Positions 506 to 32,135 of a stretch of 64,000 nucleotides of DNA are shown here, piece after piece. The stretch is from NCBI GenBank assembly GCA_029856045.1, contig JAHQWG010000016.1, forward strand, positions 62,001 through 126,000, written 5' to 3'. Made by a program: the position numbers and the translations under genes. The notes under the pieces are model-generated. The model was not told the origin of the DNA and searched no databases. It saw only the letters and a program-made list of their open reading frames with translations. How positions within the stretch are numbered: the first letter of the stretch is position 1; each line of letters opens with the position of its first letter. Origin of the DNA: Promethearchaeia archaeon. GTDB taxonomy: Archaea; Asgardarchaeota; Lokiarchaeia; Sigyniarchaeales; SOKP01.

Positions 506-3500
506 TTATTGAAGTTCTTGTAGCACATTACAAATTATTGAGTCTTGAGACATCTCACATCTAATTTTTAAAAGAGCTATTATTCTCTTTTTAATATCTT
601 CTTTTTCATATTTTGCTGTTCTTAAAAAGATTTTTGCAACAGATCTTTGTGTATTTATTGGAGTATCAGAAGAAAGTAGCTTTAAAAGAGTAGATAATAA
701 ATTTTGAATTCCAATTTTATTTATTAATTGAGAAACTGATATAATAGTTTTTTCTCGGACAGAATCTGATGGATCGTTAAGTAAATCAACGATATAAGGA
801 AAAATTTCATCTAAATCTTCTGAACTATAAATTTTTATCAATTTTATTGAAGATTCCCTTACAATTTCATCATCATCTCTTAAATTTTTGGAAATTTTAT
901 TAAACGGAATTAATTTTGGGGATATATTTGGGATTTCAGTTAATATTTCCATTGAACTTCTACGTACCCATTTTTGATCATCATCAAGCATTTTAATAAG
1001 TTGATTTAAAATGATATCATAATTCTTGATATCTTTTATTAAATTTCCTAAACTTTTTATGATAGCATCCCTGACTACCCATTCGTCATCAGACATTGAA
1101 TCTATTAACACATTAGCTACTTTATCGGGAGCTTTATGCCCAATAAAAAATAAAACATTAGCTGCTGATTCCCGTACGAAAGGTTCCTTATCTTTTAATA
1201 AATTGATGATAGGGTCAATAGGTATTATCTCAGGGGAATTTTTTGCAATATCTATAAGCGATTTAGACAAAGTTATTTTTACTGATTTTTCTTGTACAAT
1301 TATAGTGTTTAAAAGAACAGAAATTAAAGGTTCGACATAATTGGGCATTCTAATCGCAATAATCGAAATAATCTTAGATGCTTCTGTTTTTAATTGCTTA
1401 GTTCCCTCAGATTTTAAAATATTTATAAAGGGATCAATGTTTATTAAATCAATATAATCTTCTGCTAGTTCAGATAATGAATTAATTGAAGTTAATTTAA
1501 TATATTCTTGATCTGAATTCAAATTTACTAGTAATTTTGGAATAAAAAGTTTAGGATTTTCTTTAACGATATTGATTACAGTTTTGGTTATTATACCTTT
1601 CGTGATAAATTTTGCTGAATCAGGGATTTTAATCAATTTACTAAAAACCATCTCAGGATTTTGTTTTCCAATATTAATAATCATATTGGAAATGCTATTT
1701 TTTATCTGTTCATCATCTGATTTAATATATTTTAATAAGATATCTGTGATTTTCTCAGGATTTGTCTCCCAGATTTTTCCTAATAATCTCAGAATACTAT
1801 ATTGAATTTCTAATTTTGATGAAGCCATCTTACTTAATAAGTAATCCAAATTAAGAGCGGTCGGAACTTCATTATGATATTTTTCTAATGCTTTTATTGC
1901 AGAATTCCTAACAGCTTCATTAGGATCTAAGAGTCCATCTAAAAAAGGTTTTATTGGAATAAAATATTCTTTAAAATTCCCGATTTTAGCTATTGTAGAA
2001 AAAATTTCGGCCCTAACCTCTTTATTTGGGTCATTCATTAGGGATATTAATTCATTAACTGTACTTGAATCTAAATCTTCAATATTAATTCCTTGGAGAG
2101 AAAATGCTGCTGCAGCTCTTACATTCTTATTTGGATGCTTCAATTTTTCAATAACTAAGGCTAAAGGAAATTTTTTAGGGGATTTTACTAAAAATTTAAG
2201 CGTCTCTTCTTGAACCTTATAATCAGAATCTTGTAATAAATGTTCAAACTCTGTTAATGCGATATAATTTAAACTTTGGTTAGGAATTCTTGATAAAACC
2301 ATAATTGCATAATATTTCATATGCCATTCAGTATCTTTGATTAATGATACAAGAACATTGATTGGAATCTGATTTATTAATTTTTTATCTGCTTTAGTTA
2401 AGGTTTCTAAGATGGGGATTTTTTTATCATAATTTGGGCTATTTAATCCTTCAATTATCCATGAAAGTATTGTATCTGGAGCATCTTTTTCAAGTTGAAC
2501 TAATACTTCAGTTGAGATTCTTTTAGAATTAGGATTAGGATCACTTATACCATCAAGTAATGTATTTTTAAATTTATTGCTTGTAAGGTCGATATCTCCC
2601 TTCCGAGGTATTCTCTCAAACATTAATTTTATTGTTTCCTCTGCATGATCCCGTATTTTTTTATCTGAATTTTTAATAAAATTAAATAAAGGGATTGGAT
2701 CAAAAGTTTGCCCGGATTTTGTTATCATTGAATATCTAAGATTTTGAGGGAACTCATTTTTTAAATTGATTACATAAAAAATAATAAAAAATAACAAAAT
2801 AGTTTCTTCAATAATTGCTGCCGGAACAAATTCTATAAACCTAGTATTTATTGGTTGCGTGAAAATCCAAGAATTAAAAATTTTTTCTAATTTACTGGCG
2901 TTTACTATTAAAAAATTGACTAAAACATTTAAACCAACAGCTGCAATTAAATACCCTGCAAAATATACATCAATTCCTCTGTATTTAATTTTTCGACCCC
3001 AAAATCTAGTAAAATAACCAATAATGCCAAATATCAATACTATAATAACCATCCAAGCATAGGACATGGTAGATATTGCCATTGAACCAGAAAAGTAGTA
3101 ATTTATAGTTTGTATTAATGAGATCCATGTCCAAACAAATACAAACAACATAACTCCAAGAATTATGTAAGGGGCTGGATCTCTGCCAAATTCTTCCATA
3201 GAACGCTTACTATTTTCAAATCCTAGAAAGAGATATCTATTTAACTCAGGTAGATGATAATATACATTACTTATTCCAGCTACATACCCTTTTGCTCCAT
3301 AGAATGTTAAAATCATTAAGGGATAAACTAACATCCATGACATCCAAATAATAATAACAGGAACGTTTGTGATTAACCATATCATAATAGGGGGAAAAAT
3401 AAAAATTATAAAATATAAAAGAACAGCAACAAGGAGAGAATAGGGTTTTGGAAATCGATTTATGATTTTTTTTCCAAGAAATTCATGAAAAGGAGTTAGA

Positions 3501-3889
3501 CCTTCACTCTTGTTCTCAGTCCATGCAATAAAGATAAAATCAAAGAGGGGATACCCTGAGATATAAAAAAGACCTGCAATCATTGGAAGGATTAATGCAT
3601 AAGGTGAAATCTCTGGAGGTGATACTCCTAATTGCCAAAATTCAGGAGTTTCGATAATAAAAATAACAATCATTGCAATAATCGTTATTGTTGCTAATCC
3701 AAAGATTAAACCGTAAATAACGCACACAAACCGATCCAAAATTGAAAATTCTCCTTTTTTAACAATAGAAACCTGTTTATAAATAAGTAAAAATCCGAAA
3801 ATGCTCGTACCAATGTAAAAAAACAATAATAAAATAGAAGTATCATTCCATGAGAATTGTAAATTGAATAGATCTCCGAAGATCCCCAT
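506..3889 (-). CDS. Large polytopic membrane protein with C-terminal HEAT-repeat solenoid
   Basis: About 1127 residues. The first ~390 residues hold roughly nine to ten hydrophobic segments (for example around residues 20-40, 55-80, 100-125, 150-205, 245-300, 310-335, 355-380). The remaining ~700 residues are a regular array of ~35-40-residue helical units with HEAT signatures such as DPNPNSKRISTEVL, DPNKEVRAEIFSTIAKIG, DEWVVRDAIIKSLGNL and DDQKWVRRSSMEIL. A GTG nine bases upstream (3898) is an alternative start; I prefer the ATG at 3889. The HEAT array suggests a membrane-anchored protein-binding scaffold, but the partner is unknown. It lies between mcm and a GINS gene, divergent from the latter. 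I recognise no named family for the membrane domain. Confidence 0.75.
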   Translation of the reverse strand: MGIFGDLFNLQFSWNDTSILLLFFYIGTSIFGFLLIYKQVSIVKKGEFSILDRFVCVIYGLIFGLATITIIAMIVIFIIETPEFWQLGVSPPEISPYALILPMIAGLFYISGYPLFDFIFIAWTENKSEGLTPFHEFLGKKIINRFPKPYSLLVAVLLYFIIFIFPPIMIWLITNVPVIIIWMSWMLVYPLMILTFYGAKGYVAGISNVYYHLPELNRYLFLGFENSKRSMEEFGRDPAPYIILGVMLFVFVWTWISLIQTINYYFSGSMAISTMSYAWMVIIVLIFGIIGYFTRFWGRKIKYRGIDVYFAGYLIAAVGLNVLVNFLIVNASKLEKIFNSWIFTQPINTRFIEFVPAAIIEETILLFFIIFYVINLKNEFPQNLRYSMITKSGQTFDPIPLFNFIKNSDKKIRDHAEETIKLMFERIPRKGDIDLTSNKFKNTLLDGISDPNPNSKRISTEVLVQLEKDAPDTILSWIIEGLNSPNYDKKIPILETLTKADKKLINQIPINVLVSLIKDTEWHMKYYAIMVLSRIPNQSLNYIALTEFEHLLQDSDYKVQEETLKFLVKSPKKFPLALVIEKLKHPNKNVRAAAAFSLQGINIEDLDSSTVNELISLMNDPNKEVRAEIFSTIAKIGNFKEYFIPIKPFLDGLLDPNEAVRNSAIKALEKYHNEVPTALNLDYLLSKMASSKLEIQYSILRLLGKIWETNPEKITDILLKYIKSDDEQIKNSISNMIINIGKQNPEMVFSKLIKIPDSAKFITKGIITKTVINIVKENPKLFIPKLLVNLNSDQEYIKLTSINSLSELAEDYIDLINIDPFINILKSEGTKQLKTEASKIISIIAIRMPNYVEPLISVLLNTIIVQEKSVKITLSKSLIDIAKNSPEIIPIDPIINLLKDKEPFVRESAANVLFFIGHKAPDKVANVLIDSMSDDEWVVRDAIIKSLGNLIKDIKNYDIILNQLIKMLDDDQKWVRRSSMEILTEIPNISPKLIPFNKISKNLRDDDEIVRESSIKLIKIYSSEDLDEIFPYIVDLLNDPSDSVREKTIISVSQLINKIGIQNLLSTLLKLLSSDTPINTQRSVAKIFLRTAKYEKEDIKKRIIALLKIRCEMSQDSIICNVLQELQ

Positions 3890-4071
3890 ATTAAACACTT
3901 TAAATTTTAGAATAATTAAGGAATTTTCTAATTAAATTAAATTTTATATTGTTATTTTAATATTAAATTTTAAAAAAGTAATGAATCTTATTATTTTAAT
4001 ATACTTTAAGTTATAATTTATTTGTGAATTTTTCTTTAGAATTGACAATCTTATTGAGTTAGTATATTAGA

Positions 4072-14252: not shown

Positions 14253-14770
14253 CTAAGAATTTTTTAATCTAAAGATTTCTAAGGAAACATCTATGATTTT
14301 TGATGCTACATATCGTTTTGTATTTAATGGAACGTGGGTAATATGTTTTTCTTTGTCAATAATAAAAACTTCATTTGTTTTGGTTCCGAACCCTCTTTCA
14401 TCACGTCCTACATCATTGGCGACTATTAAGTCCATATTTGATTTTAAAAGGCGTTTATAGGCTCTTTCGATAAGTTCCTTTTCTAAAACTTTCGTTTCAG
14501 CCTTAAAACCTACAATAAAAACGTTTTTATCCGTTTCTCTTGCTATATCAATAATTTTTGGAGTTAATCTTAATCCCAGTTTTAATTCTTCATTTTTATT
14601 CGAAGAGATTTTTCCTTCTAAGTATTGTTTTGGGGTATAATCACCAATTGCTGCTGCAGAAATGAAAAAATCATATTTATGTTTTGTTAATTCTTCTTTA
14701 GCCATATTTAAAAAATCATTTGTAGAAGTCGCTGGAACCATATCAATATATGCAGATTCGTCGATAAATT
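14253..14770 (-). pseudogene. Truncated second copy of coaBC (C-terminal CoaB part only)
   Basis: The frame encodes ~170 residues closely similar to the C-terminal third of the full coaBC at 21767-23038. Shared blocks include YDFFISAAAI-DYTP, LTPKIIDIARETDKNVFIV, LDLIVANDVG-type segments and NTKRYVASKIIDV. Similarity begins at an AYID block (~14765; AYIE in the full copy) and stops abruptly upstream. The phosphopantothenate decarboxylase domain and the nucleotide-binding N-terminal half of the synthetase domain are missing, so it cannot make an active CoaBC. An ATG at 14741 could give a 162-residue protein, but this start lies mid-domain. The copy is in direct orientation to the intact gene and bounds the three-gene block between them. 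Confidence 0.8.
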
Positions 14771-14934
14771 TGTTAAAATTGGAATAAACTCAAATTTAAC
14801 TGACAATACGGAACAAAATCGTATGAGAAATAATCTCTTAGATATGAAATTAAATAAAAAAAAAGTTGTTTTAATTTTTTTTGAGTTTTTGAACTTTTCT
14901 TCATTTAAATACTTTCAATATATTGGTAATAAAA

Positions 14935-15195
14935 ATGGCTAAATTAAATTTTAAATTTCTGAACATTATTGATATTTTTATTAATGATTTAGGTACTGCT
15001 TTAGGAGAATTTTGGGAGTTTATGAGATCAGTTCTCTCATTAAGTGGTCTCTTTGGAGCTGTATATTTCCTTATAATGATATTAATTGGAAAACACATAG
15101 GCGTAAAACCCCCTGTAAAAACATTGATAGTTTCAATAACATTACTGACAATTTTTGGGCCAGACTATGGTCTGAGGTATTTTAGAATAATATAG
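14935..15195 (+). CDS. Small membrane protein, first gene of the coaBC element
   Basis: 86 residues from the ATG at 14935; a TTG 12 bases upstream is possible but would precede the expected start site. An amphipathic N-terminal part (KFLNIIDIFINDLGTALGEFWEFM) is followed by two hydrophobic segments, LFGAVYFLIMILIG and TLIVSITLLTIFG. I know no family for it. ATTTAAATA lies ~25-30 bases upstream, so the transcript is probably leaderless. The gene is followed within 50 bp by the membrane ATPase gene and points the same way, so the products may form one membrane complex. Confidence 0.5.
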   Translation: MAKLNFKFLNIIDIFINDLGTALGEFWEFMRSVLSLSGLFGAVYFLIMILIGKHIGVKPPVKTLIVSITLLTIFGPDYGLRYFRII

Positions 15196-15242
15196 TAAGA
15201 AGTAGTAAAATGTAAGTTTAAAAATAAAAAGTGGTTTAAAAA

Positions 15243-18200
15243 ATGGTATATATGTTTGAAATGTTCTTCCAGATTTTGCTGCTATTAACATGTGTTTTTG
15301 GAATCTTTGTAATTCTTGGTTTATTATTTTCAAAAAAAAATAGAGGAAAAATTTTTAAAAAAGCATTGTATTTATGCATTCCTCTGTGTAGCCTACTCCT
15401 TTTATTTTGGAGTTTTTTCATACTAGAAACTAACATATATAGATCTTTCGATTCGTTTATTGTTCTTATCTTTGAACTGGAATTTTTAGGCATATTAATT
15501 TGTATTGTTGCATTGTATTTTAATCTTAAAAAACACCCCCGACCCCCAAATCTTATCTATATCCTTGCAGTTTTCATGATTTTTCTCTCTCACATAGTGC
15601 TCGCAGGTCTAATGGCAGATTTATTTCGCGGGACCGTTGTTTCGATCATAATTGCCCTAATTGTATTTTTATATAATGACTTTTTTAGAGGTAAATTTAA
15701 ATCAGTAATACATACTATTCAAATGAATTTAAGAACTCCATTTTTTATTAGGAGAACTAATTTTGAAAGCAAACTGCCTGTAATTAATTCTGAGTATTTA
15801 CCGTGTGATTATGAAATGGATAATGCTAGTGACATAAACGAGAAAGATAATGAAGGAATAAAAACCAAAAAAATGAGGAGAGTAAAATTCTGGCATGCAG
15901 TCGTTGTGATAACCCAACCTCCAATCAATGATCAATTTAATAACAGAAATTGGGAAAAAACATGGCTTAAAAATTTTTTTAATAAGAAATCTTCATATGC
16001 TCTTAGACTTAAAATCCATAATAAGCTTCAATGGGAATTTTTTATGAATGTTCGTAATAGGTTTGGGGCAATAAGAGCAGGTAAAGCAATTCTCACAGAA
16101 TTAAAGCATATTTACCAAGGATTGGATGGAATAATTAAAGTAGTTCCAATCACCTCAGATGATCTTTATCAAAAAAGAATATTTTATGAAATTTTCCTTC
16201 CAAAACCGCCATTTATGAATAAAATTTTATTCATCGAAAAAGCAATAAAAATTTTTGATCAGACTCAGAATGAAATCGAGATATATATCTTATGGAAAGA
16301 AGCTCATCCCTATAAACGCGAAAAAATCCGATTAAAAATTAATGATATGATCTATGAGGACAATTATACTAAAAATAAAATTTTTGAGATGTGGACAGCG
16401 GTTCCGTTTAAGATTAGGATTTTTATTGCATCTAAGGTCCATTCGGAAGACCCTAATGAAATAGAAGAGCAAGAAGCGGACCTTCAAGGGATATTAAAAA
16501 CACTATTAATGGATATTAAAAACGAAAAAAAACGGGCACATTTTAAAAGAACCTCATCTGGAACGTATATCGACATCTTAAAGATAAATCATTATAAAGG
16601 CAGGGTAATCACCCATAAAGTGATAGATTTCGATTTCCCGAAAAATATTCCGTTATTAAAAGCACCAATATTATCAGTTGAAAATATTAAGGATAAATCT
16701 GTTTCAATTAATGATAAAAATCATATTGCCCTAGGATTGCAATACCACGTGGGAGTCTTAACAAAAAATATTGGATATGTACATATAGATGCTTTTGCTT
16801 CAAGCTGCTTTATAGGCGGGCTTTCTGGTACCGGAAAAACTTACTTGATTCTTTGGATTATCAAGGAATTGGCATCTAAACACTCTGAAGTAGGAATTTT
16901 GAATATTAACATTAGTAAAGAAAATCAACAGGAGTTATATGAAAAAGGTTTTAACGTAATTAAGTACGGTGATCCGGAATTTAAAGTTCCTTATTATGTT
17001 AAAGGGTCAAATCCAGATCAAACGCGTCAAGAAACATCATCAATTTTAGCAGCAAGTTTAGGATTAAATAATGTAGTTATTAATCTGCTTTTAAATGTAA
17101 TGCAACAATATGATGAGCAATTAGGAGATCAACCCGAATCACTGATGGTATTATTTAATACACTCATAATTTTCATGGAAAAAAACCCATATCACGAGAA
17201 ACTTCAAACAAATCTATTACGAGCAATTAAAAATCGAATAATGCCGCTCTTAGCCGGTAAAACATTTCATGATACAGTAATATACACCCAAAAGATACCA
17301 AAATGGTTTGTTGATTGGCAAAATGGAGAAAATGTTTTCCTTGATTTAAGCATGTGTAATGAATTTCAGAAACGATTATTAATCATGCTAGTCCTTCAAA
17401 TGGTTAGAACTTTAACTCCAAAAGGAGAAGCAGGTAAATTAACAAATCTAATCATAATTGATGAGTCTAAAAACATAGTTCGAAAACCAACTAACAATAA
17501 CCCATATGATTATGATTTCATTTCAAAGGAACAATTAGAGGAGATATTTATCAAATTAGTTTCAGAATTTCGAGCATTGGGAGTAGGATTTCTTTTTGCA
17601 GACCAATATCCTTCGTTATTATTTCCTTGTGTAGTAAAAGTAAGCCTTCAAATAATCTTTCGCGTTAAATACCCTTGCAATACTATCTTCACCGAAAATT
17701 ATGGCGATAGAGATTTATTACCAAATTTAAAAAACCGTGTAGCGTTGGTAATGAATGGTATTGAGAGTGAAAATTTTCTAATACAAACGCCGGACTATGC
17801 ACCTCCTAAGCAACCACAAGTTAATTTAACTTCTTCACAAGCTTTTCAGTCAAAACCTGAAAAGAAAAAACAAGAAAGACTTACTTTACTCGAAAAAATA
17901 TTTGAAAACCCGAATTGTCTAGTTCTAATGGACATAAAAGTTGATATAAAATTAAATAATTACTTCAAAGAGAAAATTAAGAAACTTGAAAAGAAAAAAA
18001 AAATAAAAGAACTTTATTGCCTAAAATATGCCATTTTTTATTATCAACTTAGAAAAAAAGTGGAACGAGCGCTTAGTCCAAATATTGAAAGGAATATTGA
18101 TCTCTATGGTTATATTTATTCTTTAACACAATTTTTATATCAAAGAGGATGGGAATTAGACCTTAAAATATATGATGATTTCATGTCATTTGGTTCCTTG

Positions 18201-18341
18201 CATGATTATTTCTTATTAAATAAGCCGGGAATAGAACATGAGATTAAGCGGTTAAATCACTCCTTTATGGCATTATATAACGAAATTTGTCCTATAATAA
18301 AACCGTTTGAACAGGATCAAAAAGATAAAGCGGTGATTTAA
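15243..18341 (+). CDS. Membrane-anchored HerA/VirB4-type P-loop ATPase
   Basis: 1032 residues. About four transmembrane segments fill residues ~5-150. A mixed region of ~350 residues follows, then a pumping-ATPase domain with Walker A IGGLSGTGKTYL (~residue 523-534) and Walker B NLIIIDESKN (~736-745). After Walker B come FRALGVGFLFADQYPSLL, the sensor-like helix found in HerA/VirB4/TraG proteins, and a charged C-terminal tail. Members of this superfamily move DNA or protein using ATP, in conjugation, chromosome segregation, DNA-end processing or anti-phage defence. The membrane anchor fits a secretion or DNA-transfer motor. It lies between the small membrane protein and the repeat protein, whose start is one base after its stop, so coupled translation is likely. 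The exact family is uncertain. Confidence 0.75.
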   Translation: MVYMFEMFFQILLLLTCVFGIFVILGLLFSKKNRGKIFKKALYLCIPLCSLLLLFWSFFILETNIYRSFDSFIVLIFELEFLGILICIVALYFNLKKHPRPPNLIYILAVFMIFLSHIVLAGLMADLFRGTVVSIIIALIVFLYNDFFRGKFKSVIHTIQMNLRTPFFIRRTNFESKLPVINSEYLPCDYEMDNASDINEKDNEGIKTKKMRRVKFWHAVVVITQPPINDQFNNRNWEKTWLKNFFNKKSSYALRLKIHNKLQWEFFMNVRNRFGAIRAGKAILTELKHIYQGLDGIIKVVPITSDDLYQKRIFYEIFLPKPPFMNKILFIEKAIKIFDQTQNEIEIYILWKEAHPYKREKIRLKINDMIYEDNYTKNKIFEMWTAVPFKIRIFIASKVHSEDPNEIEEQEADLQGILKTLLMDIKNEKKRAHFKRTSSGTYIDILKINHYKGRVITHKVIDFDFPKNIPLLKAPILSVENIKDKSVSINDKNHIALGLQYHVGVLTKNIGYVHIDAFASSCFIGGLSGTGKTYLILWIIKELASKHSEVGILNINISKENQQELYEKGFNVIKYGDPEFKVPYYVKGSNPDQTRQETSSILAASLGLNNVVINLLLNVMQQYDEQLGDQPESLMVLFNTLIIFMEKNPYHEKLQTNLLRAIKNRIMPLLAGKTFHDTVIYTQKIPKWFVDWQNGENVFLDLSMCNEFQKRLLIMLVLQMVRTLTPKGEAGKLTNLIIIDESKNIVRKPTNNNPYDYDFISKEQLEEIFIKLVSEFRALGVGFLFADQYPSLLFPCVVKVSLQIIFRVKYPCNTIFTENYGDRDLLPNLKNRVALVMNGIESENFLIQTPDYAPPKQPQVNLTSSQAFQSKPEKKKQERLTLLEKIFENPNCLVLMDIKVDIKLNNYFKEKIKKLEKKKKIKELYCLKYAIFYYQLRKKVERALSPNIERNIDLYGYIYSLTQFLYQRGWELDLKIYDDFMSFGSLHDYFLLNKPGIEHEIKRLNHSFMALYNEICPIIKPFEQDQKDKAVI

Positions 18342-18342
18342 A

Positions 18343-21300
18343 ATGGTTGAAGGCGAAAGTGGTGGAGATGCAAGTCGAGACACAAGCGGAGATACAAGTG
18401 GAGATGCAGGAGAAGATACAGAAGGAGATAGTGAAGTAGATTATGAGGAAGGTCGCACAAAGGAAGAAGTAGAAGGTTATGATTCTCAGCAAGAATCTGA
18501 AGAAACAGAGAGTGTTCACAGTGAAGCTGAAGAATCTCCTACAATCGAAGATGAATTAAAAGAGATAGAAGAAGAACCTATTCAAGATGAGCTTCCAATG
18601 AGTGAAAATGATATAGAAAATCCAGATGATTTACTATCTGATGATGATCTTCCCATGAGAGGAGAAGATTTAAAGGATTCTGAAGAGAATTTAGATCTCC
18701 AAGAACTTCCCCAAACATTTGATGAAGTAGAAAAAGCAATTAAGGAAAGTGAGGAGCGACTTGACCTTACTGAGGTCCCCCAAACCTTCGATGAGGTTGA
18801 AAAAGCACTTAAGGAAAGTAAGGAACGACTTGACCTTTCAGAGATTCCTCAAACCTTCGATGAGGTTGAAAAAGCACTTAAGGAGAGTGAAGAGCGACTT
18901 GACCTTACTGAGGTCCCCCAAACATTCGATGAGGTTGAAAAAGCACTTAAAGAGAGTGAAGAGCGACTTAACCTTTCTGAAGTTCCTAAATCAATAGATG
19001 AATTAAACGCGTTAGAAGATTACCAAAACAAGAATATTGTTAAAAATTCAATTCGCAACATAATGCGAATGAGTCCAGAACAGCGGGAAAGTCATGGATT
19101 GCCTAGAGAATATACAAACCATGAGTTGGATATATTTTTTGCGCAAATTGATACTACTGCGACTTTAGATAGCAATAATGCCAAACCAAGTGAAGTTAGT
19201 AATCCAGAAGGCTCAGGACCATTTTCTCGTAATGGTTCATTTGATGGAAAATCTGAGGGTTTAAAAAAGGAAAGTGTAAATAAAATTATAGATAAAGAAA
19301 TGACATCAGATTCAGATATTAAACAAAAAGAAACATCATCTACTCTCAATAAAGATATAGAAAAGAGTTCTATTGATAATTATAAAAGCAAACTTGCTAA
19401 TATTGATTGGAAAAGACAATATCTACAAACAAAAAAAGGCATGGAGGAAACAAGTAATGAAAAATCGGAATTTGATATAAATAATTTAGAGAAAATTGAA
19501 AACACATTAGACTCGAAAAAAATAGAATTAGCTACTATTAATGACAAAATAAAAAAAGATAATAAAGATTTGAAAGAATGGGAAAAACTAAAAAAAGAAA
19601 AAAAAGAAGAAGGAAAATCAAAGAAAAAAATAGAGGAATTAAATAAAGAAAACTTAAAAAATAAATCTGAATCGGAAATTGAACAATTAAACATTATTTC
19701 TGGAAAAAATAGAAATGACACTTCTGAAGATTTATTAAAGAATGATTTGTCAATTTTTGCAACAAAAAGATCTTGGAAAGATTGGACATACGAAATGTTA
19801 TTGGAAGAATTTACAAAAATATGTTATAAACTAGGAGTTAAAGATGGTTTTGCACCAACTAAAACCCAGATTGAAAATATCGAATATCGCTATATTATGA
19901 GTGGAATAACATCTTTACGGAAAATGTATAAGAAAAAAGGAATAGATAAAAAAATTAATTATTCGACATTAGTAAAGGACGCAGGATTTAATATAAAACA
20001 TGATATATATAAATACTCGAATATTAGAACTTTAAAAGAAGCGGCGGAGAAATTAATGTCCATAAAAGATAAATTAGGAATTTTACGGGAACGACCACCA
20101 ACAAGAGCCGAATTAGAAGATGGAGGATACTCTGGTTTTTTAAATATGTTTCGCAATAAAAAATTTACATATAACGATGCTGTGAGAGCAGCAGGTTTAA
20201 TTCCAAATTACGACTCTCAAAAATGGATGTGGCTGGATAAAGGTGATACTCTATATTTAGCGAGTAATTATTTTAAAAAGATATATGAGCAAAAATTGAA
20301 GAATTTACTAGATTTAGAGAACAATAAAGCTCCTAGAAGTGGCGATTTGATTGAATACGGGCCAAAAGGATTTTATTACGCTGTTGTTGATCGAGGATTC
20401 ACTTATAATGAGTTGGTTAGAGCAGCTAGCTTATATCCAAATGTAGAACCTTTTAAATGGGGTAATACTTTCAATATTGTTGATGCTAAGGATTATTTAA
20501 TGAAACTAATTAATTCAGGTGCTTTAGATCATTTGGAATTATCAGAGGGAGAATCTCCTACCATTCAACAGCTTAAAAATAGTAATAATGATTTTGTTCA
20601 AAAATTTTCGAAGCAAGGAATAAAATACAACGATATATTACGATTAACGGGATTACAACCTAATCATGAGCCTTATAAATATTACAATTATAAGATTTCT
20701 GATTTCATAGGTCTTTTTAAAGAGATAATGGATACTAATGAAATTAAAGATTTAAATTTAGGTGTTAGAGAAGCACCTACATTAAGACAATTATATGAGT
20801 TGGGATTTGGTTTTTTTCCTAGTGCGATACAAAAGAAGGAGATTAATTATAACGAGATATTAAGAAAATCTGGATATGACATTAATCATGAAATTCGTAA
20901 ATATGAGGGATATTCAAATAATGATTTCAAACAAGAGGTAAAGAAAATAATTCTTGGCTCTTTTCTTAGAGATGAATTAAATCTTACAACTAAGGAAGCC
21001 CCTACTATAAAACAACTAATAAATCTGGGCTATGGAGATATAATTCATCAACTGATTGATCGAAAAATAAGTTATAACGATGTTGTTAAAGATGCTGATT
21101 TAGTCCCTAATATGTTCCAGACTAGTCAAGAGATAGGGAAAATACTTCACCCAATCCTAGAATACTTTTTTATGATCCATACAATTTCAAAAAATATTAA
21201 TTCTTATTTCGAAATAAGACCTAGTATTTTAGATAATCGGAAGCAATGCGACATTACGATACTATATCCTGAAACTTATTACATTGCCCCTTCAAAAAAT

Positions 21301-21732
21301 ATTAAAATGATAAATATCGACTATACTATGTCTTCAGATAGCGAGTTACTTCTTGACAAATGTTTTCGAGGTTATCAAGGAAAACATAAAAAATTAATTA
21401 TAGTACCTTTATACATGCCGAAAAATTATATTAAGATGACTAAATCTAAGCTACACTCTTTTAGCATACCTTTTATGGAAAAAGTTGATATCTTAACTTC
21501 TCAAGAATTTCTTAATCTTTTCTCATTTCCTGATAATATTAGAGATAAATTTTTCTATTACTTAAGATTAGCAAAGGATTCGTTTGATGACGAAGCATTA
21601 TACAATCAACTTGAGAGAGATTCCCTTAAGGCCAAAAATATTTTAAAAACTAAATTTAAAGCAAGACAACAAAACGGGTTTGAAAAATTTCTTAGAGAAA
21701 GAGGAGATTACTCTCTTTTAAAACAAGGATAA
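18343..21732 (+). CDS. Acidic, repeat-rich protein with helical repeats resembling homing-endonuclease-associated repeats and a possible nuclease end
   Basis: 1129 residues. Residues 1-110 are very acidic; 114-205 hold four 23-residue repeats plus a partial one; ~370-480 is a charged coiled coil. From ~490 to ~925 there are six units of ~75 residues, each with L-x-n-(A/P)PT-x-x-(D/Q)L, then (I/F)-x-Y-(N/S)-x-(L/V)-(V/I)-(R/K)-x-(A/S)-G. They recall the DNA-binding repeats that accompany homing endonucleases. The C-terminus (~935-1129) has LHPILEYFF, CDITILYP, INIDYT and KCFRGYQGKHKKLIIV. This is the order of acidic positions expected for a PD-(D/E)XK-like fold, but the usual lysine is not in place. 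A GGTGAT Shine-Dalgarno-like site sits inside the end of the ATPase gene. A DNA-targeting partner of the ATPase is plausible; no function is established. Confidence 0.6.
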   Translation: MVEGESGGDASRDTSGDTSGDAGEDTEGDSEVDYEEGRTKEEVEGYDSQQESEETESVHSEAEESPTIEDELKEIEEEPIQDELPMSENDIENPDDLLSDDDLPMRGEDLKDSEENLDLQELPQTFDEVEKAIKESEERLDLTEVPQTFDEVEKALKESKERLDLSEIPQTFDEVEKALKESEERLDLTEVPQTFDEVEKALKESEERLNLSEVPKSIDELNALEDYQNKNIVKNSIRNIMRMSPEQRESHGLPREYTNHELDIFFAQIDTTATLDSNNAKPSEVSNPEGSGPFSRNGSFDGKSEGLKKESVNKIIDKEMTSDSDIKQKETSSTLNKDIEKSSIDNYKSKLANIDWKRQYLQTKKGMEETSNEKSEFDINNLEKIENTLDSKKIELATINDKIKKDNKDLKEWEKLKKEKKEEGKSKKKIEELNKENLKNKSESEIEQLNIISGKNRNDTSEDLLKNDLSIFATKRSWKDWTYEMLLEEFTKICYKLGVKDGFAPTKTQIENIEYRYIMSGITSLRKMYKKKGIDKKINYSTLVKDAGFNIKHDIYKYSNIRTLKEAAEKLMSIKDKLGILRERPPTRAELEDGGYSGFLNMFRNKKFTYNDAVRAAGLIPNYDSQKWMWLDKGDTLYLASNYFKKIYEQKLKNLLDLENNKAPRSGDLIEYGPKGFYYAVVDRGFTYNELVRAASLYPNVEPFKWGNTFNIVDAKDYLMKLINSGALDHLELSEGESPTIQQLKNSNNDFVQKFSKQGIKYNDILRLTGLQPNHEPYKYYNYKISDFIGLFKEIMDTNEIKDLNLGVREAPTLRQLYELGFGFFPSAIQKKEINYNEILRKSGYDINHEIRKYEGYSNNDFKQEVKKIILGSFLRDELNLTTKEAPTIKQLINLGYGDIIHQLIDRKISYNDVVKDADLVPNMFQTSQEIGKILHPILEYFFMIHTISKNINSYFEIRPSILDNRKQCDITILYPETYYIAPSKNIKMINIDYTMSSDSELLLDKCFRGYQGKHKKLIIVPLYMPKNYIKMTKSKLHSFSIPFMEKVDILTSQEFLNLFSFPDNIRDKFFYYLRLAKDSFDDEALYNQLERDSLKAKNILKTKFKARQQNGFEKFLRERGDYSLLKQG
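18682..18957 (+). repeat. Four 69-bp in-frame tandem repeats
   Basis: Units at 18682-18750, 18751-18819, 18820-18888 and 18889-18957 each encode 23 residues on the pattern ERLDLTEVPQTFDEVEKALK plus E/K-S. A diverged fifth unit starts at 18958. Units two to four are nearly identical at DNA level, which suggests recent copy-number change. Confidence 0.9.
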
Positions 21733-21766
21733 AGTAGTATTATTTTATATTTTTTAAAAATTTTAA

Positions 21767-23038
21767 TTAATAATTTTTTATTCTGAAGTTTTCAATAGCA
21801 ACGTCAATTATCTTCGATGCTACATATCGTTTCGTATTTAATTCAACATGTGTAATATTTTTTTCTTTATCAATAATATAAACTTCATTCGTCTTGGACA
21901 CAAAACCTCTTTCCTTAAGTCCTACATCATTTGCTACAATTAAATCGACATCAGATTTTATTAAACGCTGATAAGCTCTTTCGATGAGTTCTTCTTTTGA
22001 AACCTTAGTTTCAGCCTTAAAAGCTACAATAAAAACATTTTTATCTGTTTCTCTTGCTATATCAATGATTTTAGGAGTTAACTTTAAATTAAGAATAAGT
22101 TCTTTACGCTCATCAGTCGATATCTTTCCTTTAAGACGTCGAATCGGTGTATAATCACTAATAGCTGCAGCCGATATGAAAAAATCATAACTATTTTTCG
22201 ACAATTCTTCTTTTACCACATTCAAGAAATCTTCAGTTGTGATAACAGATCTCGTTTCTATATATGCCGGAACCTTAGTTGTACCTTGACCATATACCAA
22301 TAAAACATCTCCTCCTCTAACCTTTACTTCTTTAGCTAGTTCAATTCCTTGACGACCTGAAGACCAATTCGTTAAATATCTCACCGTATCAAGCGGTTCT
22401 TTACTAGGACCAGCTGTTATAAGAAATTTTTTTCCTTCTAATTCTTTTACCGGGTGGACTAAATCAATCACTCTTTGGATGATATCATCAACTCTTGCAA
22501 TTTTAGCCTTACCTTCAGAGATTCTTGGACCTAAGATATCAACCCCTAGTCGTTTTAATTTAAGAATATTTTTCTCTAAAATTGGGTGATTGAACATACT
22601 CTCATGCATTGCGGGAACAATAATTATAGGAATCTGAGTTCCAAAAGCTGTGGTCACGACTGTAGTAACAGCTGTATCGTCAATTCCAGTAGCTATCTTT
22701 GAAATCGTATTTGCTGTCGCAGGACATACTAAAATAAGATCTGCTTTTCCTAACTTTTTTGGTCGTTCTCCTGCTAAATAGATATGTTCAACATTGCCTG
22801 TTAATTTTGTTATTGCTGGATTTCCGGTAGCCCAGTGCATTAGATCGGGACCAAGTAATTTTGTGGCAGCTCTAGTCATAACACATACCACCTCAGCACC
22901 AAGTCGCATTAATTCCCGGGAAATTATTGGAGCTTGAATTATCGCAACACTACCAGTGACACACAAGCAGATTGTTTTTCCTCTTAAAATTGTTCCCTTA
23001 GATTCTAAAATTTCCTTAGAGGGATGATCTTTATTCAT
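21767..23038 (-). CDS. coaBC: Bifunctional phosphopantothenoylcysteine decarboxylase/phosphopantothenate-cysteine ligase
   Basis: 423 residues from the ATG at 23038; an in-frame TTG at 23077 would add 13 residues. The N-terminal CoaC half is a flavoprotein domain with ICLCVTGSVAIIQAPIISREL, the HWATGNPAITKLTG region and VPAMHESMFNHP. The C-terminal CoaB half starts near residue 200 with KKFLITAGPSKEPLDTVRYLTNWSSGRQG and continues with FFISAAAISDYTP, KLTPKIIDIARE and DLIVANDVG. It makes 4'-phosphopantetheine on the way to coenzyme A. It is the intact partner of the truncated copy at 14253-14770. If the element model is right, the CoaB 3' end here is element-borne and replaced the original host tail. 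Confidence 0.92.
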   Translation of the reverse strand: MNKDHPSKEILESKGTILRGKTICLCVTGSVAIIQAPIISRELMRLGAEVVCVMTRAATKLLGPDLMHWATGNPAITKLTGNVEHIYLAGERPKKLGKADLILVCPATANTISKIATGIDDTAVTTVVTTAFGTQIPIIIVPAMHESMFNHPILEKNILKLKRLGVDILGPRISEGKAKIARVDDIIQRVIDLVHPVKELEGKKFLITAGPSKEPLDTVRYLTNWSSGRQGIELAKEVKVRGGDVLLVYGQGTTKVPAYIETRSVITTEDFLNVVKEELSKNSYDFFISAAAISDYTPIRRLKGKISTDERKELILNLKLTPKIIDIARETDKNVFIVAFKAETKVSKEELIERAYQRLIKSDVDLIVANDVGLKERGFVSKTNEVYIIDKEKNITHVELNTKRYVASKIIDVAIENFRIKNY

Positions 23039-23325
23039 ATTAATCAAACTCTTAAATATGTACTTTTTTAAATTCAAAATAAAAGTAATGATTATTTCAT
23101 TAAAATTTTTTTAAAAAAAAAACATAATGATAATTTAACTGATTTTTAATTTTAATTAAATCATCTTGTTATTGGATATTTCGAATTATCTGGTATAAAT
23201 TCATATCTTTACTATTTATAAACAATTGTTTAATTTAAAAAAGTATTATAATCTCTTAATCGAGATATTTTTATTAAAATAAGATAAAACTTAGGAAAAT
23301 CCATGTGGTGTAAAAAAAAATTCCA

Positions 23326-32063: not shown

Positions 32064-32135
32064 TGGACCTGACGGGAATCGAACCCGTGACCTCTTGAAT
32101 GCGAATCAAGCGATCTTCCTCTGATCTACAGGCCC
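32064..32135 (-). tRNA. tRNA-Ala (anticodon CGC)
   Basis: 72 bases on the minus strand with a full cloverleaf: acceptor GGGCCTG/CAGGTCC, D-stem GATC/GATC, anticodon stem CTTGA/TCAAG with loop TTCGCAT, T-arm ACGGG-TTCGATT-CCCGT, discriminator A. The anticodon is CGC. The acceptor contains the G3-U70 pair that marks alanine tRNAs. CCA is not encoded. The gene is intact despite serving as the right end of the island. Confidence 0.95.

Follow-up and report, generated by a model that had tools for sequence, protein, structure and literature searches.

A homing-type insertion carrying a VirB4-like ATPase with replacement of the coaBC gene end in a Lokiarchaeal genome

Results

A window of 64,000 nucleotides, part of a 564-kb contig of a Lokiarchaeal genome (metagenome-type assembly, 55 contigs), was analysed with regard to a putative homing element inserted in the gene coaBC. 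Lokiarchaea are archaea closely related to eukaryotes. An intact coaBC (21767-23077, minus strand) lies to the right of the element and a headless 3' copy of the same gene to its left. Between the two copies only the three open reading frames (ORFs) of the element were found, all on the plus strand. They encode a small two-helix membrane protein (14935-15195), a membrane-anchored VirB4/CedD/HerA-like ATPase of 1032 amino acids (15243-18341) and a homing-endonuclease-like protein of 1129 amino acids (18343-21732); the last two genes are 1 bp apart. An earlier note on this DNA had already described these as three linked genes, in agreement with the ORFs. It missed the duplication of the coaBC 3' end which brackets them, and hence the context of a homing-type element.

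For coaBC, three species of the same genus (genomes G001, G002 and G004) served as comparison. Amino acids 1-266 of the intact gene product share 92.5, 91.0 and 90.2% protein identity with these sisters, but amino acids 272-436 just 74.5, 73.3 and 73.9%. The displaced fragment (14253-14755, minus strand; ORF 14253-14741, homology up to 14755) has no 5' part. Its amino acid identity is 90.3, 89.1 and 89.7% to the 3' ends of the three sisters and 72% to the coaBC of the window itself. A single nucleotide match of about 2 kb with 91-92% identity to the sisters runs from the gene of topoisomerase VI subunit B (topoVI-B) through the displaced fragment (12756-14753/14755), and the displaced end has remained attached to the topoisomerase VI gene. 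On the other side, the 5' part of coaBC (22431-23077, minus strand) shows nucleotide identities to the sisters of mostly 90-100% per 40-nt window. At about 22430 the identity falls from about 95% to about 55-80%, and the segment beyond (21767-22430, minus strand) is fused in frame to the 5' part. The divergence starts at a conserved CoaBC stretch, GPSKEPLDTVRYLTNWSSGRQG in the window, which differs from that of G001. Within a short patch at about 22300-22340 the sequence resembles the sisters once more, which makes the exchange slightly mosaic; apart from this patch, about 150 bp of coaBC between the junctions are absent in native form.

In G001, G002 and G004 coaBC and topoVI-B are contiguous without an element, and both flanks of the element are collinear with these genomes. 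Since the sisters are contiguous, the 2-kb match stops at 14753-14755 and the identity falls at about 22430, all three sisters show the empty site. From this comparison of sequences, the element spans roughly 14756-22430 (about 7.7 kb) within coaBC, with its left end at 14756-14934 and the junction with native DNA at 14755/14756. The end of the target gene is duplicated on either side of the endonuclease gene (14253-14755 and 21767 to about 22430). Judged by the identities to the sisters, the displaced fragment is the native end of coaBC, and the one that now completes the gene arrived with the element. A homing-type insertion with replacement of the gene end is well supported. A second displaced coaBC 3' fragment, possibly a remnant, was observed without adjoining element in a genome of another genus (G006, locus L182, 10506-10718).

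Further loci (L labels) were compared with the element of the window, and three of them, testable against sister species with G000 as additional comparator, show the same signature of native and foreign ends. At L119, an AIR-synthase-like gene in G001, the displaced gene start is 93-97% identical to G000 and G004, the fused one 60-61%. The displaced dapB end at L185 in G002 is 89% identical to G000 and the fused end 60%; a similar pair occurs in G001. The weakest case is L085 in G001, which carries an ATPase of the window family: here 82% identity to G000 for the displaced and 70% for the fused end were calculated from 56-63 compared residues. Gene-end duplications spanning the insertion were also found at L107, L108, L118 and L190. 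Taking all match lengths, flanking duplications within 1.5 kb were detected for 6 of 24 nuclease genes and 6 of 131 control genes (p 0.004). With a cut-off of at least 25 amino acids, set post hoc, the ratio was 4/24 to 0/131 (p 0.0005). Nuclease genes abut a convergent neighbour in 10 of 31 cases compared with 22 of 104 other genes, which is not significant (p 0.15), and no rule is claimed. The gene dapB is bordered by the nuclease family at L185, L190, L116 and L241/L244 (G002, G054, G007), and in G001, too, one dapB end is fused and another displaced.

Pfam, PHROGs and PDB sequence searches with the proteins of the window taken singly brought no decision, and profiles from family alignments were needed. 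The 1129-residue protein contains acidic short tandem repeats of the type ESEERLDLTEVPQTFDEVEKALK in its N-terminal region (18712-18975), as the earlier note had stated. They are followed by six helical repeats of about 70-75 residues each (approximately 19798-21111), presumably DNA-binding, of the type (A)PTxxxL...YNxxxxxxGLxPN, which can be made out by eye in the translated sequence. The earlier note had likened them to repeats associated with homing endonucleases; the Pfam profile 'Homing endonuclease associated repeat' (PF18780) matched one of 23 relatives (E 1.7e-4), and the protein of the window gave no match at E 1.

Across an alignment of 20 family members the C-terminal 220 residues are conserved: H936, E957, D970 and Y1011 do not vary, and E940 and D993 hardly do. 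Pfam gave no match for this nuclease-like domain (21115-21729). An AF2 model of residues 560-1129 (570 residues, 22 sequences, mean pLDDT 83.5, pTM 0.45) consists of helical repeats and a following alpha-beta-beta-beta-alpha-beta core of the PD-(D/E)xK type, consistent with the nuclease-like end proposed before. Foldseek gave no match with E under 0.001; its top nucleases were Can2, the R2 retrotransposon protein (probability 0.91), EcoO109I, BsoBI and MUS81. A PD-(D/E)xK fold is regarded as likely. While the repeats of the presumed DNA-targeting repeat protein are real, the predicted domains are best read as those of a homing endonuclease. The nuclease domain occurs in 37 of 228 genomes searched in the Asgard phylum, nearly all of them from one Lokiarchaeal family, with up to 10 copies per genome; the family is patchy and multicopy. 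Its copies adjoin hisS, dapB, pyrG, a pantoate-kinase-like gene, ftsZ, actin and other genes, named from sequence and not all tested with profiles.

The ATPase contains a P-loop. In a PDB profile search based on an alignment of 29 members, HerA came first (2.4e-7). DUF87/HerA matched 21 of the 29 relatives, and among the NCBIfam models CedD was found in nine and VirB4 in three of them; the ATPase of the window itself gave no NCBIfam match at 1e-3. In its AF2 model (mean pLDDT 77.2), six N-terminal helices, predicted to lie in the membrane, precede a two-part VirB4-like body. In Foldseek, TrwK/VirB4 ranked at the top (2.7e-15, about 857 columns), Thermoanaerobacter VirB4 reached TMt 0.69, and HerA was also strong. 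P-loop, helices and the kinship in profiles and folds bear out the HerA/VirB4-like membrane-anchored motor of the earlier note. PADLOC reported no more than a weak HerA/mad8 similarity for the ATPase and, at E 0.01, nothing for the nuclease; similarity to NCBIfam HerA_antiphage was seen among the relatives. Relatives of the ATPase are present in dozens of Lokiarchaeal genomes. Two single-protein scans of viral contigs yielded no relative, phages gave no match either, and plasmids a single weak partial one (Exiguobacterium).

The small protein has 86 amino acids when read from the ATG that a relative at L062 with 80% identity uses, and 90 from an upstream TTG. L062 is located in a sister genome in another setting and also encodes an ATPase with 85% identity. 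The family of seven proteins from ATPase loci forms a pilin-like two-helix hairpin with an invariant S-x2-G-x2-G and a C-terminal motif of the YF/YFRI type, the terminus in the window being GLRYFRII. At L187 (5607-8653) a truncated small two-helix protein directly abuts a nuclease gene, as though an intervening ATPase had been deleted. A membrane protein with an HExxH-like motif is encoded directly or almost directly upstream of the ATPase at L062 (1085-2290, weak Peptidase M50 match), L071 (2311-3093), L073 (10631-11389), L074 (645-1406) and L089 (7544-8302); several of these proteins end in ...QW. It is absent from the element of the window.

Co-occurrence in other genomes, the lack of which would have refuted the reading of the earlier note, was found for the ATPase and homing-type endonucleases. 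LAGLIDADG enzymes adjoin relatives of the ATPase at L063, L065, L066, L068 and L086, GIY-YIG or NUMOD3 at L075, L076, L077 and L083, HNH at L064, and the PD-(D/E)xK domain of the window at L070, L091 and L093. Acidic N-terminal regions analogous to that of the window follow the ATPase at many other loci, and several of the homing enzymes come after such a region that, like the one in the window, contains short tandem repeats. Because relatives of the ATPase in dozens of genomes are repeatedly located beside homing-type endonucleases, this linkage is not due to chance. When well-supported branches of the ATPase tree are counted, the partner labels LAGLIDADG and PD-(D/E)xK must each have changed three times or more; those for unknown or EDxHD-like partners were assigned by us and are less sure. 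The class of enzyme beside the ATPase has been swapped repeatedly on this tree.

Some of these loci show additional features. In four genomes (L075, L077, L082, L083) a GIY-YIG-type or related gene and the ATPase are located directly downstream of a thermosome (chaperonin) gene. At L063 (11517-13643) and L065 (4632-7298) an intein-like splicing domain is part of the acidic protein encoded after the ATPase; it has LAGLIDADG at the C-terminus and almost no C-extein. For L074, L079 and L104 the C-termini were considered as EDxHD/Vsr-like on account of the motif E-(F/Y)-N-G-I-Q-H-Y; a PDB profile search gave no confirmation, and the assignment was dropped.

Discussion

Homing endonucleases insert only where gene copies with and without the element share one cell. 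For the passage of selfish homing elements from one prokaryotic cell to another, other carriers are usually invoked. Hybrid genes created by endonuclease ORFs are known from the mORFs of fungal mitochondria, which affect atp6, atp9, cox2 and nad3 of Glomus and atp6 of Allomyces; for a fungal atp6 the displaced native end is 91% and the foreign end 64% identical to a relative (PMC3630166). The insertion pattern in the window equals that of these mORFs: an endonuclease ORF is located beside an in-frame foreign gene end, the displaced native end is nearer to the relatives, and single genes are the targets. The enzymes of the mORFs belong to LAGLIDADG or GIY-YIG, whereas a PD-(D/E)xK enzyme is predicted here. 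Furthermore, mORFs consist of one ORF in organelle genomes and, unlike the element of the window, have no transfer-type ATPase or membrane proteins.

With the Ced/Ted systems for DNA exchange in Crenarchaeota and with bacterial type IV secretion systems the element shares a VirB4/CedB/CedD-type ATPase and a small two-helix membrane protein. Ced and Ted resemble type IV secretion systems without a recognisable relaxase (PMC9905601), and a relaxase was likewise not recognised in the element. In contrast to these systems, it has no separate VirB6/CedA channel gene, is linked to homing enzymes and is located inside a host gene; it is also not a chromosomal DNA-repair system as Ced/Ted. HerA-NurA, HerA-Sir2 and HerA-DUF4297 are similar in that an ATPase of the FtsK/HerA superfamily adjoins a nuclease gene, but the ATPase described here is membrane-anchored and VirB4-like, its partners are homing-type nucleases of several classes, and the gene end is replaced. 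Among the mobile elements of Asgard archaea, the Aloposons of Heimdallarchaea encode twin proteins of 3,000-6,000 amino acids and a MinD/ParA-like ATPase and use tRNA sites (PMC8813620). HeimM2, located between the 16S rRNA gene and a tRNA gene, was reported with two proteins; a homing-endonuclease-like gene is present where it is integrated (PMC8813620), a feature shared with the element of the window. Identity with an Aloposon was rejected, the largest protein of the element having 1129 amino acids and the site being coaBC and not a tRNA. In the open-licence PMC literature no paper was found in which homing endonucleases are connected with VirB4-type transfer genes. As far as this literature shows, the pairing of homing enzymes with a transfer-like motor is new; gene-end replacement itself was already known. 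The novel case would be a class of self-transmissible homing elements.

With a probability of roughly 0.6, we regard the insertion as a homing mobile element whose endonuclease is coupled to its own type-IV-secretion-like DNA-transfer motor and which may move itself between cells. From its fold and repeats and from comparative genomics, the 1129-residue protein would cut coaBC alleles without the element. Repair from the element-bearing copy would then install the element together with the altered gene end, which would keep coaBC intact and remove the target site. Less certainly, the ATPase and the small two-helix protein could constitute a minimal type-IV-secretion/Ced-like apparatus that moves DNA of the element, perhaps with the endonuclease docked via its acidic N-terminal repeats, from donor to recipient. 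In the recipient cell the endonuclease would install the element. Such an element would need neither relaxase nor integrase. Cell-to-cell transfer is inferred. Of the new transfer or defence system suggested in the earlier note, the transfer part is compatible with the evidence; the defence part is not supported, PADLOC giving no more than the weak HerA/mad8 match for the ATPase and none for the nuclease.

HerA-like ATPases are partners of nucleases in anti-phage systems. The VirB4-like ATPase and the small protein could accordingly be a selected passenger of a homing element with another job in defence, DNA processing or the envelope. The mad8/HerA and HerA_antiphage similarities fit such a role, as does the lack of a channel or relaxase gene. 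We consider this unlikely: six membrane helices are predicted for the ATPase and its closest fold match is VirB4, the nuclease has no PADLOC match, and the enzymes beside the ATPase are of homing type and belong to several catalytic classes, unlike the nucleases of known HerA systems. To a similar, low degree it is conceivable that the nuclease is an effector which the ATPase delivers to adjacent cells and which cleaves a conserved gene there. The altered end would protect the bearers, and replacement would be a by-product. An acidic N-terminal region with an exchangeable C-terminal nuclease recalls polymorphic effectors, and housekeeping genes (coaBC, dapB, hisS) are among the targets. But gene-end replacement and multicopy spread are predicted by homing, and most nuclease copies stand alone.

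These common stand-alone copies would also suit two unrelated insertions, in which a homing endonuclease landed by chance beside an existing ATPase operon. This is very improbable, as the nuclease gene is 1 bp from that of the ATPase, both are located within the same coaBC pair with the sites of the sisters empty, and the linkage recurs with several enzyme classes. An assembly chimera or an ordinary tandem gene duplication has to be considered for a metagenome-type assembly of 55 contigs. We give it hardly any weight, given the length of the contig, the collinearity of both flanks with three sister genomes, the in-frame fusion in the hybrid gene and the recurrence of the native/foreign signature in other genomes.

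Several results weigh against a homing element with its own transfer motor. Concerning the nuclease, the Foldseek matches of the C-terminal domain to nucleases all have E > 0.01, the catalytic lysine is outside the canonical place, and most copies of the family occur without the ATPase. The latter is present in just two of the four cases with native and foreign ends; at L085 its frame is interrupted and the partner protein has no recognised nuclease domain. ATPase loci without a recognised adjoining homing enzyme exist as well (L067, L069, L080, L095), and L069, L080 and L095 form a clade with T2SSE-type neighbours or their relatives. For the four thermosome-linked loci no duplicated thermosome 3' end was found. 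Regarding transfer, VirB2/CedA1 and the small protein are alike only in length and in the arrangement of two helices, and the family of the latter gave no pilin match in the PDB search up to E 10. A separate VirB6/CedA-type channel gene and a relaxase are missing, the six helices of the ATPase being the sole polytopic part. Moreover, Ced ATPases work in DNA import, CedD being the import ATPase, so export is assumed (PMC11868833).

One type of DNA-transfer-like motor has repeatedly been paired with homing enzymes of several unrelated catalytic classes. If this coupling is functional, it would provide a testable travel route for homing elements and a candidate apparatus for DNA exchange in Asgard archaea. 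Hybrid housekeeping genes would also arise in this way, and these can distort gene trees in a lineage of central importance for the origin of eukaryotes. Replacement of the gene end does not depend on the claim of transfer.

Elsewhere in the window, the sole tRNA gene is located at 32064-32135, and a HEAT-repeat protein of 1130 amino acids with condensin/adaptin-like profile matches is encoded at 506-3898.

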